A stretch of 37,040 bases of DNA, from assembly GCA_017432665.1 (NCBI GenBank), contig JAFRIS010000020.1:1-37040 (forward strand), in the 5' to 3' direction. The position numbers were made by a program, and so were the translations under genes. Below, one piece after another: positions 2,864-15,878 of the stretch (position 1 is its first letter; the number at the start of each line of letters is the position of its first letter). The notes below the pieces were generated by a model. The model ran no database searches. It was not told the origin of the DNA and was given only the letters and a program-made list of their open reading frames with translations. The DNA comes from Bacilli bacterium. GTDB lineage: Bacteria > Bacillota_I > Bacilli_A > RF39 > UBA660.

Positions 2864-2871
2864 GTACTCAA

Positions 2872-2980
2872 GTCGAGTGAGTATGCATAAGTGTAAACGA
2901 GCTGCATAGGGATAAAACCTACACGTATTACGGAGTCACTACTTTAATCAGTAGTGTGCTCCGTTTTTTTATTACTCGAC
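2872..2980 (+). ncRNA. Structured leader RNA, copy 1 of 2 (riboswitch-like)
   Basis: First of two tandem elements. Four blocks are identical in both copies: GTGAGTATGCATAAG (2877-2891), a 20-nt block from AACGAG to GGGATAA (2896-2915), TACACGT (2920-2926) and ACGGAGTCAC (2930-2939). The variable linkers between them differ in length. TATGCA/TGCATA can form a hairpin linking the first two blocks. A 9-bp stem, GTCGAGTGA (2872-2880) with TTACTCGAC (2972-2980), encloses the element. A strong terminator hairpin lies inside. I do not recognise it as a known riboswitch class. Confidence 0.75.
2930..2970 (+). terminator. Intrinsic terminator of leader copy 1
   Basis: ACGGAG-t-CACTAC pairs with GTAGTG-tg-CTCCGT and is followed by seven T. 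The 5' arm contains the conserved block ACGGAGTCAC, so terminator and conserved element overlap, as expected for a transcription attenuator. Confidence 0.8.
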
Positions 2981-2992
2981 CAGTTTCTTTAG

Positions 2993-3107
2993 ATTTTTGT
3001 GAGTATGCATAAGGCAACGAGCTGCATAGGGATAATAGTCTTACACGTCAAGTACGGAGTCACATTTACACATATGTGTGATTCCGTGCTTTTTATTTAG
3101 TAAAAAT
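2993..3107 (+). ncRNA. Structured leader RNA, copy 2 of 2 (riboswitch-like)
   Basis: This second element repeats the four invariant blocks: GTGAGTATGCATAAG (2999-3013), the AACGAG...GGGATAA block (3016-3035), TACACGT (3042-3048) and ACGGAGTCAC (3054-3063). Linkers and stem sequences differ from copy 1. The enclosing stem here is ATTTTTGT (2993-3000) with GTAAAAAT (3100-3107), different bases but the same position, which is compensatory evidence for pairing. The element ends about 68 nt before the exporter start codon. Confidence 0.75.
3054..3098 (+). terminator. Intrinsic terminator of leader copy 2
   Basis: ACGGA...CACAT pairs with ATGTG...TCCGT, followed by GCTTTTTATTT. It has the same architecture as the first attenuator but different loop and stem bases. 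Confidence 0.7.
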
Positions 3108-3174
3108 TATATTACAATGGTTTTGATGATAAAAATCTAAAGAAATGAAAATATCTAGAAAGGAGTTGATTAGA

Positions 3175-4155
3175 ATGGCAGTTATTACAGTAAAAAATCT
3201 ATCAAAGAGTTTTAAAGTAAAAACAAAGGAAAAAGGATTGAAAGGAAGCCTTAAATCAATCATCAAAACAAAATATAAAATCATCAAAGCCGTAAAGAAT
3301 ATTTCTTTTTCAGTAGAAAAAGGAGAAATGATTGCCTTCATTGGACCAAATGGAGCAGGAAAGAGTACTTCAATTAAAATGATGACCGGAATACTATATC
3401 CAGATAAAGGAAGTATTGATATCTTAGGTTTAAATCCAGTCAAAGAACGTAAAAAACTAGCTTATGAAATAGGTTGTGTATTTGGTCAAAAAGAACAATT
3501 ATGGACACATTTAACTCCATATGATAACTTTAGGTTTTTTGGAGCCATCTATGATATTCCAAACTCTCGCGTTGAGAAAAAGATTAATGAATTAAAAGAA
3601 TTATTTGAATTAGATGATTTTATTAATACTCCAGTTAGAAACTTAAGTTTAGGACAAAGAATTCGTTGTGAAATAGTTGCTTCTTTAATCCATGAACCTA
3701 AAATATTATTCTTGGATGAACCAACTATTGGATTAGATCCAGTTGTTAAAGAAAATATCAGAGTTTTAATTAAACGAATGAACAAAGAATATAAAACTAC
3801 AGTAGTTTTAACTTCTCATGATGTATCTGATATTGAAAAGCTATGTAAAAGAGTAATTATTGTCAATAATGGTAGTATTGTTTTAGATGATACTATGGAG
3901 AACTTAAAGTATCATTATTTAAATAAGAAAATAGTAGATGCTAAAATGAAAGAACAAGTTAATTTAGATGATGAAGACGGTATAACCATATTAAAAGATA
4001 AAGGTTATAATTTAAAAATTGAAGTAGATACTAAAAAGAAAAGTGTCAGTGATGCTTTAAAACTATTAAATCCTGATAATATTATTGATATAAATATTTC
4101 CAATGTACCTCTAGAACAAATAATTAGTGATATCTACAAAGAGGGTGACAAATAA
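3175..4155 (+). CDS. ABC-2 exporter ATP-binding protein (COG4586-like)
   Basis: A 326-aa ATPase that would power export by the two membrane proteins encoded next. Walker A is GPNGAGKST (about 57-65), the signature is LSLGQ, Walker B is ILFLDEPTIGLD, and the switch His is in LTSHD. The long loop between the first strand and Walker A (about residues 14-40, Lys-rich) and the C-terminal extension fit the COG4586 family that works with paired PF06182-type permeases. The start at 3175 is chosen because AAGGAG lies just upstream; the in-frame ATG at 3145 has no ribosome site. The stop overlaps the next ATG (TAATG), indicating translational coupling. Expression is probably controlled by the tandem leader RNA. 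Substrate unknown. Confidence 0.92.
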   Translation: MAVITVKNLSKSFKVKTKEKGLKGSLKSIIKTKYKIIKAVKNISFSVEKGEMIAFIGPNGAGKSTSIKMMTGILYPDKGSIDILGLNPVKERKKLAYEIGCVFGQKEQLWTHLTPYDNFRFFGAIYDIPNSRVEKKINELKELFELDDFINTPVRNLSLGQRIRCEIVASLIHEPKILFLDEPTIGLDPVVKENIRVLIKRMNKEYKTTVVLTSHDVSDIEKLCKRVIIVNNGSIVLDDTMENLKYHYLNKKIVDAKMKEQVNLDDEDGITILKDKGYNLKIEVDTKKKSVSDALKLLNPDNIIDINISNVPLEQIISDIYKEGDK

Positions 4156-4946
4156 TGCGTAAATATTTATACATTTATAAATCAGAAGTAATGACTAATC
4201 TTCAATATATAGTAGATATCTTAGTAGGATTTATTAGTTACTGTATTATAATCTTTATATTTTTAAATCTATGGAATTATATATATAGTGATCCAAGTGA
4301 ATTGATTAATGGTTATAATATGAATCAAATGATTTGGTATGTAACTATTACTGAAATATTATGGATGAGTATTAGTGGTAGAAAACTATGTAGAAAGATT
4401 TGTAATGATGTTCGTAGTGGTAATATTGCTTATAACATTAATAAGCCATATAACTATGTAGAATACTCTTTATTTAATCATTTAGGAGTAGTAACAATTA
4501 GATTTGTTTGTGTATTTGTTTTAGGTATAGCTATGGGAATAATATTTTTACGTAGTATTCCAAGTCTTAATGTTTTACAAATTGCTGGTTTTTTATTAAC
4601 TTGTCTTTTAGCAACAGTAATTAATATTTTATTAATTGTTGCGATTGGTTTAATATCATTCTTTATTGAAGATGCTAATCCATTTTACTGGTTATATTCA
4701 AAACTAATCTTAGTTGTTGGAACAATATTCCCAGTAGAGTTTTTCCCTGGTGTTATTCAACCAATTATTAAAGCAAGTCCAATTTATGTAGTTAGTTATG
4801 GACCAGCTAGATTATTTGTAAATTTTGAAACAAGTCAATTTATTAATGTAATAGTTGCTCAAATTATTTACTTAATTATAAGTTTTTCAATATGTCATTT
4901 TATATACAGTAAGGGGGTGAAAAGACTAAATGTTAACGGCGGTTAA
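4155..4946 (+). CDS. ABC-2 family permease, subunit 1 (PF06182-like)
   Basis: This 263-aa integral membrane protein has about six hydrophobic segments and no soluble domain. The N-terminal MRKYLYIYKSEVMTNLQY opening, then a membrane helix, matches ABC-2 permeases of the PF06182 (former DUF990, COG4587/COG3694) type, which occur as two different subunits beside a COG4586 ATPase. That is exactly the arrangement here. It overlaps the ATPase stop by one base and the next permease by 17 bases. Transported substrate cannot be inferred. Confidence 0.85.
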   Translation: MRKYLYIYKSEVMTNLQYIVDILVGFISYCIIIFIFLNLWNYIYSDPSELINGYNMNQMIWYVTITEILWMSISGRKLCRKICNDVRSGNIAYNINKPYNYVEYSLFNHLGVVTIRFVCVFVLGIAMGIIFLRSIPSLNVLQIAGFLLTCLLATVINILLIVAIGLISFFIEDANPFYWLYSKLILVVGTIFPVEFFPGVIQPIIKASPIYVVSYGPARLFVNFETSQFINVIVAQIIYLIISFSICHFIYSKGVKRLNVNGG

Positions 4947-5724
4947 AAATCAAATAAAAGTATCATTTTTATCAACTAGGTATGCATTAGAAAGAGAAAT
5001 GCTAAATAAAGTCACTTTTATTACAAATATTATTTTCATGATTTTAAATAATTCTTGTTTCATTGTTCAATGGATTATCCTTTATTCAATTAAAGATAAC
5101 ATTGGAGGTTTAGGATTTAAAGAACTATTACTTTTATGGGGATTAGCTGCAGGGACATTTGGTTTTGCACGTTTCTTCTGTGAATCAGCATTTAATATAT
5201 CAGATGCAATTAATAAAGGTACATTAGATAATTACTTAGTTCAACCTAAAAATGTATTATTATCATATATTACTAGTACTGTACAAGTATCTTGTTTAGG
5301 AGATATGCTTTATGCATATATTATGTTGTTTATATATGGTATAACAGTAAAATCATTTATATTATTTACCTTTTTTTGTATAAATGGAGCTTTAATAGTA
5401 GTAGCTTTAGCAATTATCTTTGGTTCATTAAGTTTTTGGTTTGGAAGAGTAGAATTAGTGGCTGATACAATGAACAGTTTAATGGTTAATTTTGCAACTT
5501 ATCCAGATGGTATTTTTAAAGGAATAGTTAAAATATTATTCTATACAATTATTCCTTTGGAATTTGTCAATTATATACCAATAAGACTAATTATAGATTT
5601 TAATTTAAATAGTTTTATAATAGTTATTGCAGTTACTATATTTTTTATATCTTTGGCATTTATAATCTTTTATCAAGGATTAAAACGATATAGTAGTAGT
5701 AACTTAATGAATGTTAGAATTTAG
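4930..5724 (+). CDS. ABC-2 family permease, subunit 2 (PF06182-like)
   Basis: The second 264-aa membrane subunit of the exporter has about six hydrophobic segments. It contains the loop FCESAFNISDAINKGTLDNY followed by LVQP, a pattern typical of this permease family (x-G-x-[IL]-[DE]-x-x-L-x-x-P). The ATG lies inside the end of subunit 1 behind AGGGGGTG, so translation is probably coupled. Together with 3175-4946 it completes a heterodimeric permease plus ATPase exporter. Confidence 0.85.
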   Translation: MLTAVKNQIKVSFLSTRYALEREMLNKVTFITNIIFMILNNSCFIVQWIILYSIKDNIGGLGFKELLLLWGLAAGTFGFARFFCESAFNISDAINKGTLDNYLVQPKNVLLSYITSTVQVSCLGDMLYAYIMLFIYGITVKSFILFTFFCINGALIVVALAIIFGSLSFWFGRVELVADTMNSLMVNFATYPDGIFKGIVKILFYTIIPLEFVNYIPIRLIIDFNLNSFIIVIAVTIFFISLAFIIFYQGLKRYSSSNLMNVRI

Positions 5725-5733
5725 GAGGATTAT

Positions 5734-6315
5734 ATGGAAGAATTTTTCTATGAAGAACCTAGTCTAAGAAGAAAAGATGAGGCTATCGAATTTATCAATG
5801 AATTTATTAAAAATAACTCTAATATTAATGGGACAGGTGGATTAGATAGATATCTAGATGATTATGAGGGTTGGCTAGTTAAATTAGAACAAGATTATCG
5901 GGCTAATCAACCAGAAGGAAGAGTTCCGGCTTTAACATATTTTTTAGTTAGAGAAAGTGATAATAAAATTATCGGAATGATAAATATTAGACTTGTATTA
6001 AATGACTATCTAAGAAGACATGGAGGACATATTGGTTATTGTATAAGGCCTAGTGAAAGAGAAAAAGGTTATAATAAAATAAATCTATATTTAGGTTTAA
6101 AAGTTTGTCAACAACATGAAGTTGAAGAGGCTTTATTAGATGCTGATTTAGATAATCCTGCTTCATGGAAAACCATGGAGTCATTAGGTGGTATAAGAGT
6201 AGAAGAATATATTGATGAAGTGGATCAAACTAAAAGTGTAAGATATATTATCCCTGTAGACGATTCTATAAATAGGTATAAAGATATTTATGAATCTAAA
6301 ATAAAGCACTATTAA
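5734..6315 (+). CDS. GNAT family N-acetyltransferase
   Basis: This 193-aa protein resembles COG3981-type predicted acetyltransferases. The core strand TYFLVRESDNKIIGMINIR is followed by GGHIGYCIRPSEREKGY, where RxxGY is the acetyl-CoA pyrophosphate-binding turn. LDADLDNPASWKTMESLGG is the typical end of the GNAT fold (neighbouring-residue Asn and the 'x-x-LGF'-like helix). The acceptor substrate is unknown. It lies 9 bp after the exporter permease with its own GGAGGA site, so it is the last gene of that operon, ending at a terminator. Confidence 0.9.
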   Translation: MEEFFYEEPSLRRKDEAIEFINEFIKNNSNINGTGGLDRYLDDYEGWLVKLEQDYRANQPEGRVPALTYFLVRESDNKIIGMINIRLVLNDYLRRHGGHIGYCIRPSEREKGYNKINLYLGLKVCQQHEVEEALLDADLDNPASWKTMESLGGIRVEEYIDEVDQTKSVRYIIPVDDSINRYKDIYESKIKHY

Positions 6316-6379: not shown

Positions 6380-7243
6380 ATGAAATGGATTAAAAAGATA
6401 TTAATAGGTTTATTAGTTTTTATCTTAATTGATGTTATTTTTGCTTTAGCTATTTCTTTTAACTTGAAGAAAATTTTAATTGATGGAGTTATTAAAGAAA
6501 TTGTTGTTCAAAATATATTTCCTAGAAAGCAAAGTGAAGGAAATCGTATTATTTCAGAAGAGCAAATTAAAGAAATAACTGATGATCCTAGGGTTCAGGA
6601 AATATTAAATAGTCCTGAAGTTCAAGATTTACTTGAAAAATATTTAGATACAACGGTAGATGGGCTAATTGATGTGAATAGTATTGATGATGTTGAATTA
6701 GAAAAAGACATGGTAGAATTTGTCAAAGCTAATCGTGAAGTTCTAGAAGAAAAAGTAGGTAAAGAAATAACCGATGAAATGATTGAGAAAGCTGCGGAGC
6801 AAGTAGAAACTAAAGATTTGTCTAGGGCTTATAAACAGTCGTTAGAAAATGCTAGTAGAAATATGACTACAACTGAAAAGCAAGTTTTAAAAGGCTATAA
6901 ATTTATTATTTCTAAAAAATTAAGAATTATTTTATTCATAGCATTAATAATTGATTTATTATTAATTGCTTTACTTCAAATGTCGGTTTATAAATGGATT
7001 CAAACATTAGGCAAATCAATGATTGCTAGTGGAGTAGGTATTATAATTTCTAGTTTTGTAGTTGATAAAATAGTGGAAACAAAAGCACATATAAGTCAAT
7101 TTAATACTAGTTGTTTAACTAATACAGGAGTCATTATTGCTGCTAGCGGTGTAGTAATTGTAATTGCTTATAATATTATTATGAAATTATTAAAGAAAAA
7201 GGATGATTTAGATGAAATACCCGAGTTTTCTGAAAAAGAATGA
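6380..7243 (+). CDS. Membrane protein of unknown function
   Basis: A 287-aa protein with one N-terminal membrane helix (about 7-27), a long charged, helical middle (about 30-175) that repeats EEQIKEI/DDPRVQEIL-like helices, and three hydrophobic segments near the C-terminus. The middle probably lies outside the cell. The start at 6380 follows TAGGAGTGA at 8 bp; an in-frame GTG at 6371 overlaps that site. No family is recognised. It is the first gene of a five-gene unit; its 3' end overlaps the next gene by 32 bases, which suggests coupled expression. Confidence 0.7.
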   Translation: MKWIKKILIGLLVFILIDVIFALAISFNLKKILIDGVIKEIVVQNIFPRKQSEGNRIISEEQIKEITDDPRVQEILNSPEVQDLLEKYLDTTVDGLIDVNSIDDVELEKDMVEFVKANREVLEEKVGKEITDEMIEKAAEQVETKDLSRAYKQSLENASRNMTTTEKQVLKGYKFIISKKLRIILFIALIIDLLLIALLQMSVYKWIQTLGKSMIASGVGIIISSFVVDKIVETKAHISQFNTSCLTNTGVIIAASGVVIVIAYNIIMKLLKKKDDLDEIPEFSEKE

Positions 7244-8225
7244 TTTAATTGGAGTTCCAGCACCTTCCGCAGGAGCAGGAGATGAATTAAAAGTAAACAA
7301 ATATAAACATGCAAATAAATATTTTAAAGATAATGGGTATAAAACACTTTTATCAAAAAATATTTATAAGTGTAATAAAGGACGTAGTGCTGATAAAAAG
7401 ATTAGAGCTGATGAAATTAATGAGATGTTTAAAAATAAAGATATTGATTTAATTTTATGTGCTGGTGGAGGAGAATTTTTAGTTGAAATACTACCATATA
7501 TTGATTTTGATTTAATTAAGAAAAATCCTAAGTACATTTGTGGCTTTTCTGATCCAACAGGTCTTCTATATTCAATAACTACATTATGCGATATAGCGAC
7601 AGTTTATGGAAATAATTTTTCTTCATTTGGTGAAGAAAAATTTTATCAATGTCATTATGACTTTTTAGATATAATTACTGGTAAAAAGCTAACCGAGGAA
7701 AGTTATAAATTATATGAAAATGAATCATTAAAAAAAGTAACTGGTCTAGAGGGTTTAAATTTAACAGAAAAGGTTTATTGGAATACACTTAATAATAAAA
7801 AAGTAAAATTTACAGGTCGTATCATTGGAGGATGTTTTGATATAATCGCTGAACTTGCTGGTACTAAATATGATGGTATAGATAAATTTAATGAAAAATA
7901 TAAAGATGATGGTATTATTTGGTACTTTGATAATTGTGAATTATCAAAGGAAGAAACAATTAGAACTCTTTGGAAATTTAATGAACTAGGTTATTTTAAA
8001 TATGCCAAAGGAGTTATCTTTGGAAGGTTTGGCGTAGAAACAAGTTATTTTGAATATGATACTAAGAATTGTTTAAAAGATAGTGTTTTAGGAGATTTAA
8101 ATATACCGGTTATTTATGATGCGGATATTTCACATAAAGGACCAACTTTAACAATAATAAACGGAAGTATTGCACATGTTGAATGTGATAAGGGAAAAGG
8201 AAAAATAAATTTTGAATTGGAGTGA
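7212..8225 (+). CDS. S66 family LD-carboxypeptidase/MccF-like peptidase
   Basis: This 337-aa protein belongs to the serine peptidase S66 family, which includes LdcA (removes the terminal D-Ala from L,D-linked tetrapeptide of peptidoglycan) and MccF (cleaves microcin C7-type acyl-sulfamoyl adenylates). The Ser-Glu-His triad is visible: Ser113 in GFSDPTGLLY, Glu243 in FDNCELS, His308 in DISHKGP. The N-terminal LIGVPAPSA and LILCAGGGE segments match the family. No signal peptide, so it is probably cytoplasmic and would act in murein recycling or in self-protection. LdcA-like and MccF-like roles cannot be separated from sequence alone. Confidence 0.9.
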   Translation: MKYPSFLKKNDLIGVPAPSAGAGDELKVNKYKHANKYFKDNGYKTLLSKNIYKCNKGRSADKKIRADEINEMFKNKDIDLILCAGGGEFLVEILPYIDFDLIKKNPKYICGFSDPTGLLYSITTLCDIATVYGNNFSSFGEEKFYQCHYDFLDIITGKKLTEESYKLYENESLKKVTGLEGLNLTEKVYWNTLNNKKVKFTGRIIGGCFDIIAELAGTKYDGIDKFNEKYKDDGIIWYFDNCELSKEETIRTLWKFNELGYFKYAKGVIFGRFGVETSYFEYDTKNCLKDSVLGDLNIPVIYDADISHKGPTLTIINGSIAHVECDKGKGKINFELE

Positions 8226-15220: not shown

Positions 15221-15249
15221 TTGACATTTTTGTAAATTTATGCTATAAT
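15221..15249 (+). promoter_or_regulatory. Strong promoter of the OLE RNA
   Basis: Perfect TTGACA (15221-15226), a 17-bp spacer and TATAAT (15244-15249) preceded by TGC. Predicted transcription start near 15256, immediately before the 5' strand of the closing stem of the RNA. Confidence 0.92.
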
Positions 15250-15255
15250 TAACAC

Positions 15256-15878
15256 AGAATTGATGGCACATTATTCTAGTCAAATGCTTTATTAGGAAGA
15301 CGAGCTTAAAAATTCGTTAAAAGGCATATCTATGAAACCTTTGGTGTCTGCTTCTTACGCCCAGTTTGGGGTGGATGCTGGAGATGAAGGAAGTTGGGCG
15401 ACTCGTAATGGCATACGAATCTCGACCCAGTTTCTGTGGAGACCAGTTATTGTAGCGAAGCTATACGTACCATGCTGATGCAGTGTTACGAAACTGGATA
15501 AAACCTGTATTGTGGCGAAAGCTATGTGCAGCGTAGCCTGTCTTGAGTGGGAATCTTGGGATAGATGATCTTTCTTAGTATAAGCGGCCACTTATATTAA
15601 GTATTGCGTCTTGAAATCATTCTTGCAAAAAAGAACTAATAATAAAGAGTTGGTGAGGAAATCTCCTAGAGTGTAGTTCACAATAGGATTGTGGTGGGCA
15701 CTAAGTGGTAATCAAGTCGTATGTTTGGTAACGGCATATTGTTTTCTTTAAAGGGGAACCGCATATCTGGTAACGGATTTGTAGAAATCAGGGAAATCCT
15801 ACTTGACCTAAGGCTCAAAGTTAACTATTGTGATAGCCACACAATTACTAATTAAAGTAGTTTTACTACTTTTTTTTA
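15256..15878 (+). ncRNA. ole: OLE (ornate large extremophilic) RNA
   Basis: A stretch of about 620 nt without a credible protein gene, with higher GC than its neighbours and many inverted repeats, bounded by a perfect promoter and an intrinsic terminator. The ends pair: AATTG..GGC (15258-15267) with GCC..CAATT (15836-15846). The size matches OLE RNA (about 610 nt). The decisive context is the next gene, which encodes an OapA-like membrane protein; OapA is the known OLE partner and is usually encoded directly downstream. OLE forms a membrane-located ribonucleoprotein linked to stress and Mg2+ homeostasis in Bacillota. ROOL and GOLLD are similar in size but do not sit beside oapA. Confidence 0.85.
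15854..15878 (+). terminator. Terminator of the OLE RNA
   Basis: AAAGTAGT (15854-15861) pairs with ACTACTTT (15865-15872) and continues as a T run to 15877. Confidence 0.85.

Follow-up and report, generated by a model that had tools for sequence, protein, structure and literature searches.

An ABC-2 exporter operon in a Bacilli bacterium (GTDB lineage RF39; UBA660) is preceded by two adjacent, similar RNA elements, raising the question of what kind of regulator this leader is and to what it might respond. The window, i.e. the whole stretch of DNA that we analysed, comprises positions 1 to 37,040 of contig JAFRIS010000020.1 (37,040 nucleotides), and the tandem leader occupies positions 2866-3174, where the two elements lie in series downstream of a promoter and upstream of the exporter operon. 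An initial annotation had read it as an unidentified, riboswitch-like tandem in which each copy has its own attenuator, and this proposal is supported by the absence of an Rfam match, by strong covariation, by the overlap with a terminator in nearly all copies and by the linkage to the exporter in the genus. We consider it probable that the leader consists of two serial copies of an undescribed cis-regulatory RNA class, most likely a transcriptional riboswitch of the ON type; computation establishes that the RNAs form a family, how they fold, that a terminator competes with this fold and which genes are linked, and from these results we infer that a ligand is bound, what type it is and that it acts in the ON direction.

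Layout of the tandem leader

The promoter that the initial annotation had noted ahead of the leader is TTGACA-17-TACTAT (2835-2863, + strand) and has similar counterparts at the same place in the genus loci; from its position, transcription should start just before the first copy. The domain of copy 1 (E1; 2872-2980, +) is closed by an outer stem (2872-2880/2972-2980) and holds an aptamer-like four-way junction (2874-2942, +) that is supported by the covariance model R1, by independent folding and by covariation, with the helices P1 (2877-2880/2936-2939), P2 (2882-2887/2903-2908), P3 (2909-2911/2918-2920) and P4 (2924-2926/2930-2932). An intrinsic terminator with its U-tract (2930-2970, +; folding energy of -17.7 kcal/mol, z -6.59) completes the unit and is conserved across copies. 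Copy 2 (E2) is built likewise, with a junction at 2996-3066 (+; same three lines of support), P1 at 2999-3002/3060-3063, P2 at 3004-3009/3023-3028, P3 at 3029-3032/3039-3042, P4 at 3046-3048/3054-3056, and a terminator with U-tract at 3052-3095 (+; -21.6 kcal/mol, z -6.87). E1 and E2 scored 76.1 bits (E 6.9e-22) and 87.5 bits (E 9.5e-26), respectively, against R1, a model trained on genus sequences that include both window copies and thus built partly from E1 and E2 themselves. The regions of both copies fold far below dinucleotide shuffles (z -4.24 and -4.62).

E1 and E2 have four identical blocks, arranged alike in both (GTGAGTATGCATAAG, 15 nt; AACGAGCTGCATAGGGATAA, 20 nt; TACACGT, 7 nt; TACGGAGTCAC, 11 nt), as the initial annotation had noted, except that it had given the last block as 10 nt. 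It had also drawn a stem enclosing each copy, whereas the closing helix that has support in both elements is the short P1 (GUGA/UCAC). That of copy 1 (GTCGAGTGA/TTACTCGAC) exists, and its GTCGAG/CTCGAC pairing, which lies beyond the terminator, recurs in first copies across the genus. For copy 2, the stem ATTTTTGT/GTAAAAAT can be written but is without support; the outer stem that covaries between genomes is 2983-2998/3131-3146 (2983-3146, +), which encloses both E2 and its terminator (13.2 bp when the arms come from the same locus, versus 10.3 bp with swapped arms and 7.1 bp with shuffled ones). The outer stems, forming only in read-through RNA, may have an insulating or stabilising role. Between the E2 terminator and the 3' arm of this stem lies a genus-conserved block, ATTACAATGGTTTTGATGATA (3110-3131, +), that is nearly invariant, partly -10-like and without an assigned role; every genus locus listed contains GTTTTGATGATA. 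By sequence, the Shine-Dalgarno element of the ABC ATPase gene is AAGGAG (3160-3165, +). On the far side of the promoter, a divergent gene for an RpoD-like sigma-70 factor (1463-2749, -) is transcribed away from the element and has a promoter-like site of its own (TTGACT-17-TATAAT, 2805-2777).

Distribution of the element

A mismatch-tolerant pattern revealed the tandem arrangement in at least 10 genomes of the genus, with copies ~120 nt apart. The model R1, based on an alignment of 26 genus sequences (A3), then retrieved copies from other genera in the bacterial family to which this genus belongs and a third copy from the source genome (G000:C17:4935-5013, L149), for which the target is uncertain, a sortase-domain gene lying ~376 nt downstream. 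A degenerate pattern, composed of the 5' strand of P1, the consensus of P2/P2b and the block UACAC, was run over 85,000 GTDB genomes and yielded at least 111 stretches. Among the matches listed, every pattern locus that was checked fits the model, and does so also in P4 and in the 3' strand of P1, which the search pattern did not contain; one (L108) is cut off by the end of its contig. Three pattern matches on viral contigs did not fit the model and thus serve as a control for the specificity of the search. Two further pattern matches (L003 and L004), which are not surrounded by the other parts of the element, look like chance, as do the weak R1 matches outside the family (G115, G236 and G234), which the broader model R2 did not recover.

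In all, 169 distinct copies were collected among the matches listed. The hosts are metagenome-assembled genomes (MAGs) of gut Bacilli (Ca. Onthousia, Ca. Pelethosoma and relatives) and Clostridia (Caloramator and other MAGs), and the element is concentrated in one bacterial family, with scattered occurrences in Clostridia. A search of a phylum sample with R2 gave 0 matches outside that family, and a blastn search of the plasmid database PLSDB with one Caloramator copy and one consensus-like sequence gave no match.

A covarying four-way junction

De novo folding of the 26 genus sequences with RNAalifold produced P1 (nGUGA/UCACn), P2 (UAUGCA/UGCAUA), P3 (GGGA/UCYU) and P4 (CGU/ACG), matching the helices drawn by eye beforehand: a four-way junction closed by the short P1 (GUGA/UCAC). 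The same four helices emerged de novo from an alignment of 141 diverse copies (A4, among the matches listed), in which 96.3% of cells are paired and 15 of the 19 pairs show changes on both sides. Its covariation score (0.483) exceeds those of shuffles (0.206 ± 0.006) and of slid registers, none of which scored above 0.105; since the alignment had been fitted to the model, the pair count leans towards the drawn structure.

The helices vary in sequence on both strands: P1 is GUGA/UCAC, with rare copies carrying GCGA/UCGC or ACGA/UCGU; P2 is swapped wholesale between UAUGCA, GAGAUA and AGAGCA types, each with a matching partner; and P4 ranges from CGU/ACG to CAAUU/AAUUG. Near-invariant unpaired residues line the junction, namely the G after P1, the ACA between P3 and P4 and the GAG between P4 and P1, and others form an internal UAA/GAG loop in P2, which we take to resemble the UAA/GAN motif. 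Folded alone, each window copy adopts the junction (-12.2 kcal/mol for E1 and -11.4 kcal/mol for E2). The element thereby has what a riboswitch requires of its aptamer, a conserved and covarying structure with invariant unpaired residues.

A terminator that shares strands with the junction

A second requirement, an expression platform mutually exclusive with the aptamer, is met through the strand ACGGAGUCAC, which contains the 3' sides of P4 and P1 (ACGG and UCAC) and doubles as the 5' arm of an intrinsic terminator. The initial annotation had assigned each copy a terminator whose 5' arm includes a conserved block, and folding indeed places a hairpin followed by a U-tract in both copies, with the conserved strand reused. 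A simple terminator scan of the window found neither, probably because of its limits on loops and bulges. Among the matches listed, a U-tract lies within reach downstream of 163 of the 169 copies, and local folding pairs UCAC in the terminator in 144 of these 163, most others using the ACGGA strand.

Since the window terminators (-17.7 and -21.6 kcal/mol) are more stable than the aptamers (-12.2 and -11.4 kcal/mol), the default state should be OFF, and formation of the aptamer, with P1 and P4 stabilised during transcription, should antiterminate and switch the operon ON. This direction, which would fit exporter and detoxification targets, is inferred from the anatomy of the element, as there are no termination data.

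Genes linked to the element

The exporter that the initial annotation had placed after the leader comprises an ABC ATPase, the first regulated gene (3175-4155, +; PF00005, 1.2e-30), and two ABC-2 permeases (4155-4946 and 4930-5724, both + and PF06182 by Pfam). The ribosome-binding site and homologues place the start of the ATPase gene at 3175 rather than 3145. A GNAT acetyltransferase gene (5734-6315, +; PF00583, 2.5e-08) belongs to the same operon, which probably also includes a peptidase S66 gene (LD-carboxypeptidase/MccF superfamily; 7212-8225, +; PF02016/PF17676). Elsewhere, GNAT genes are direct targets of the element, and so is an S66 gene in one locus (L054). Farther along, the window of this small-genome gut Bacilli MAG carries a full-length OLE RNA (15247-15856, +; RF01071, 415 bits).

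Within the genus, a PF06182 permease occurs in 17 of 39 genomes, and all 17 possess the element; 16 of the permeases are close to the 263-aa query (4155-4946), and the more distant one (G029) lies ~1.7 kb downstream of the element on its contig. In just two genus genomes does the element occur without such a permease. The proposed linkage to COG4586/PF06182 exporters is thus perfect in the genus, but the targets of the element as a whole reach well beyond them. Among the matches listed, the 117 distinct first downstream genes include, by Pfam, 40 for ABC ATPases, at least 22 for GNAT acetyltransferases, three for nucleotidyltransferases, two for S51 peptidases and two for type I phosphodiesterases; the streptomycin adenylyltransferase family is matched by two members. 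A single S66 target and a single methyltransferase target were identified separately from the Pfam tally. About a quarter of the targets among the matches listed are small proteins that have not been characterised and are not obviously concerned with detoxification; some of them have a Spo0A-effector fold. In Clostridia, the readable targets are mostly GNATs, and Caloramator (L103) displays a compact leader in which promoter, aptamer, terminator, ribosome-binding site and GNAT gene follow one another.

A third feature expected of a riboswitch, a consistent same-strand 5' leader position before functionally related genes, is therefore present, and as far as sequence can tell the gene linkage is what one would see for a switch acting in cis to cope with toxic compounds. 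More than 160 relatives of the leader in other Bacillota precede exporter, acetyltransferase and other resistance-like genes, so the element probably represents a hitherto unknown sensor RNA that turns on the defence against some toxic compound. The chemistry covered by the GNAT, nucleotidyltransferase and ABC families is broad, and the class of ligand cannot be narrowed from the targets.

Tandem copies and Spo0A-like proteins

Two or more copies occur in 50 of 118 loci among the matches listed, usually 106-310 nt apart. With two terminators in series, two antitermination events are needed for read-through. In nine tandems (L076, L098, L100, L105, L112, L119, L130, L131 and L138) one copy lacks the UAA/GAG loop of P2, and in all nine it is the second copy, with the junction core kept. 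Such loop-less copies could have an altered ligand or logic, and it is a matter of speculation whether differing tandem copies sense two inputs.

A small gene sits between copy 1 and copy 2 in ~11 loci among the matches listed. The commonest family of these genes (cluster 3) has no convincing Pfam match, and its protein sequence found no match in the PDB; only by fold comparison does its predicted structure (pLDDT 83) resemble the effector domain of Spo0A, with a Z of 12.3 across 112 residues, against 3.5 for the next unrelated entry. Orphan proteins without a convincing Pfam match also lie directly downstream of GRGAUA-type elements, as in L121 (3927-4478, -) and ~13 relatives (L046, L048, L050, L061, L067, L068, L082, L107, L111, L115, L132, L141 and L147). 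They are predicted to adopt the Spo0A effector-domain fold without a receiver domain and are possibly a new family of regulators. In L102, a 318-aa protein (4574-5530, +) appears to join the Spo0A-like cluster-3 domain to the unrelated cluster-9 domain; elsewhere, the two domains are separate first genes after the element.

Proposed mechanism and alternatives

We propose that each copy alternates between the four-way junction (P1-P4) and an intrinsic terminator that competes for the UCAC and ACGG strands. In the absence of ligand, the more stable terminator would form and RNA polymerase would stop; a ligand bound at the conserved junction (G after P1, ACA and GAG) would hold P1 and P4 together, thereby blocking the terminator and allowing transcription to reach the exporter operon, and the serial arrangement would make the OFF state tighter and the response steeper. 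The targets suggest as ligand a toxic small molecule, e.g. an antibiotic or an amine-bearing metabolite, that would be exported or chemically modified.

The same comparative signature would be left by a protein effector, and against the ligand reading it must be said that there are no binding or termination data and that no ligand can be named. An RNA-binding protein stabilising the junction of a stress or detoxification regulon would be expected to act through the same overlap of terminator and conserved structure, and several regulator-like targets with the Spo0A-effector fold make a protein-based network conceivable. Known antiterminator proteins, however, target short hairpins, which are exceeded by a multi-helix junction of ~65-90 nt where most of the conserved unpaired residues reside, and no candidate protein is constantly linked to an element that precedes very different genes. 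We regard a protein-responsive antiterminator as unlikely.

Rather doubtful, too, is that specialists already know the class by a name that neither Rfam 15 nor the open-access literature contains. Lists with dozens of candidate motifs are regularly published (PMC11109978; PMC8632094), but scanning the leader (2866-3174) with cmscan, a check the initial annotation had suggested, gave no match to any Rfam 15 family, nor was any element matched at gathering thresholds in the window or 18 other loci. Permissive scans (E up to 10 for the window and 5 for L103) returned only chance matches far below gathering, mostly to eukaryotic families on the terminator hairpin. No such motif came up in a search of open-access papers; because supplementary motif collections, preprints and subscription journals were outside its scope, 'undescribed' is provisional. 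The hosts, moreover, are mainly uncultured MAGs, which genome-by-genome screens would have missed.

It is improbable that the element is an OFF switch in which the ligand favours termination and the targets are repressed: some terminator-bearing riboswitches do work in this way, but here P1 and P4 themselves use the terminator 5' arm, so that a stabilised aptamer should antiterminate, and no conserved separate antiterminator was seen. Ribosome-mediated attenuation through a leader peptide, of the kind that makes resistance genes inducible by drugs, is barely credible: the targets resemble those of drug-induced attenuators and P2 of both window copies contains an ATG, but P2 of the GAGAUA type has none, aptamer lengths are about evenly distributed modulo 3 and an open frame runs through only 19 of 169 copies among the matches listed, so the conserved ORF through the leader that such an attenuator demands is lacking.

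The ON-type riboswitch thus remains our preferred reading, in the provisional sense that the element works like a riboswitch and is a member of no known class, with the defining ligand binding inferred. A more far-reaching version, tentative and with the odds somewhat against it, is a new riboswitch class in gut Bacillota with an antibiotic or a toxin-like compound as its direct ligand, through which a whole resistance regulon (ABC exporter, acetyl- and nucleotidyltransferases, methyltransferase and peptidases) would be switched in common, along with orphan Spo0A-effector-like regulators, the tandems, including those with loop-less second copies, taking an AND-like decision in series, perhaps on two ligands. 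The structure of this orphan class is well supported, its independent representatives are many, its expression platform is clear and its targets resemble a resistance regulon, all of which makes the question of 'which compound?' testable; the promoter-aptamer-terminator-GNAT leaders of the Caloramator type are compact test constructs, and the element could reveal small molecules against which uncultured gut bacteria must defend themselves.

Relation to known systems

In the SAM-I riboswitch, too, the aptamer is a four-way junction and its P1 is in competition with pairing in the expression platform, but the likeness is one of architecture only: SAM-I follows OFF logic and controls sulphur metabolism, whereas our element has other conserved sequence, other targets and no Rfam match. 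T-box leaders are, like the element, transcription antitermination leaders of Bacillota and sometimes tandem; their defining match (RF00230) was absent at the element in the window and the 18 loci scanned, and two T-boxes found elsewhere in scanned loci (L059 and L155) show that the scan is able to detect them.

To our knowledge, few natural RNAs sense foreign or toxic compounds directly. The claim of an aminoglycoside riboswitch in integrons has been disputed (PMC9410878). The azaaromatic-binding yjdF motif seems to respond not to a single metabolite but to a set of compounds that are foreign or toxic (PMC4793209), and in this apparent role it resembles our element; it differs in being tied almost only to the yjdF gene, and the element has no Rfam match to the yjdF family. 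Closest in several respects is Gd4v, an orphan variant of guanidine-IV that is enriched in gut bacteria and has PRK07324 transaminases as its main target, with GNAT acetyltransferases and transporters besides (PMC9788692). Gd4v is likewise a proposed terminator-based ON switch with an unidentified ligand and with GNAT and transporter targets in gut bacteria, but it consists of two hairpins joined by a pseudoknot, the second hairpin being the terminator (PMC9788692). This defining arrangement is absent here, given the four-helix de novo folds and the lack of an Rfam guanidine-IV match; unlike Gd4v, our element is a four-way junction with other conserved sequence that is linked mainly to ABC exporter and GNAT genes.
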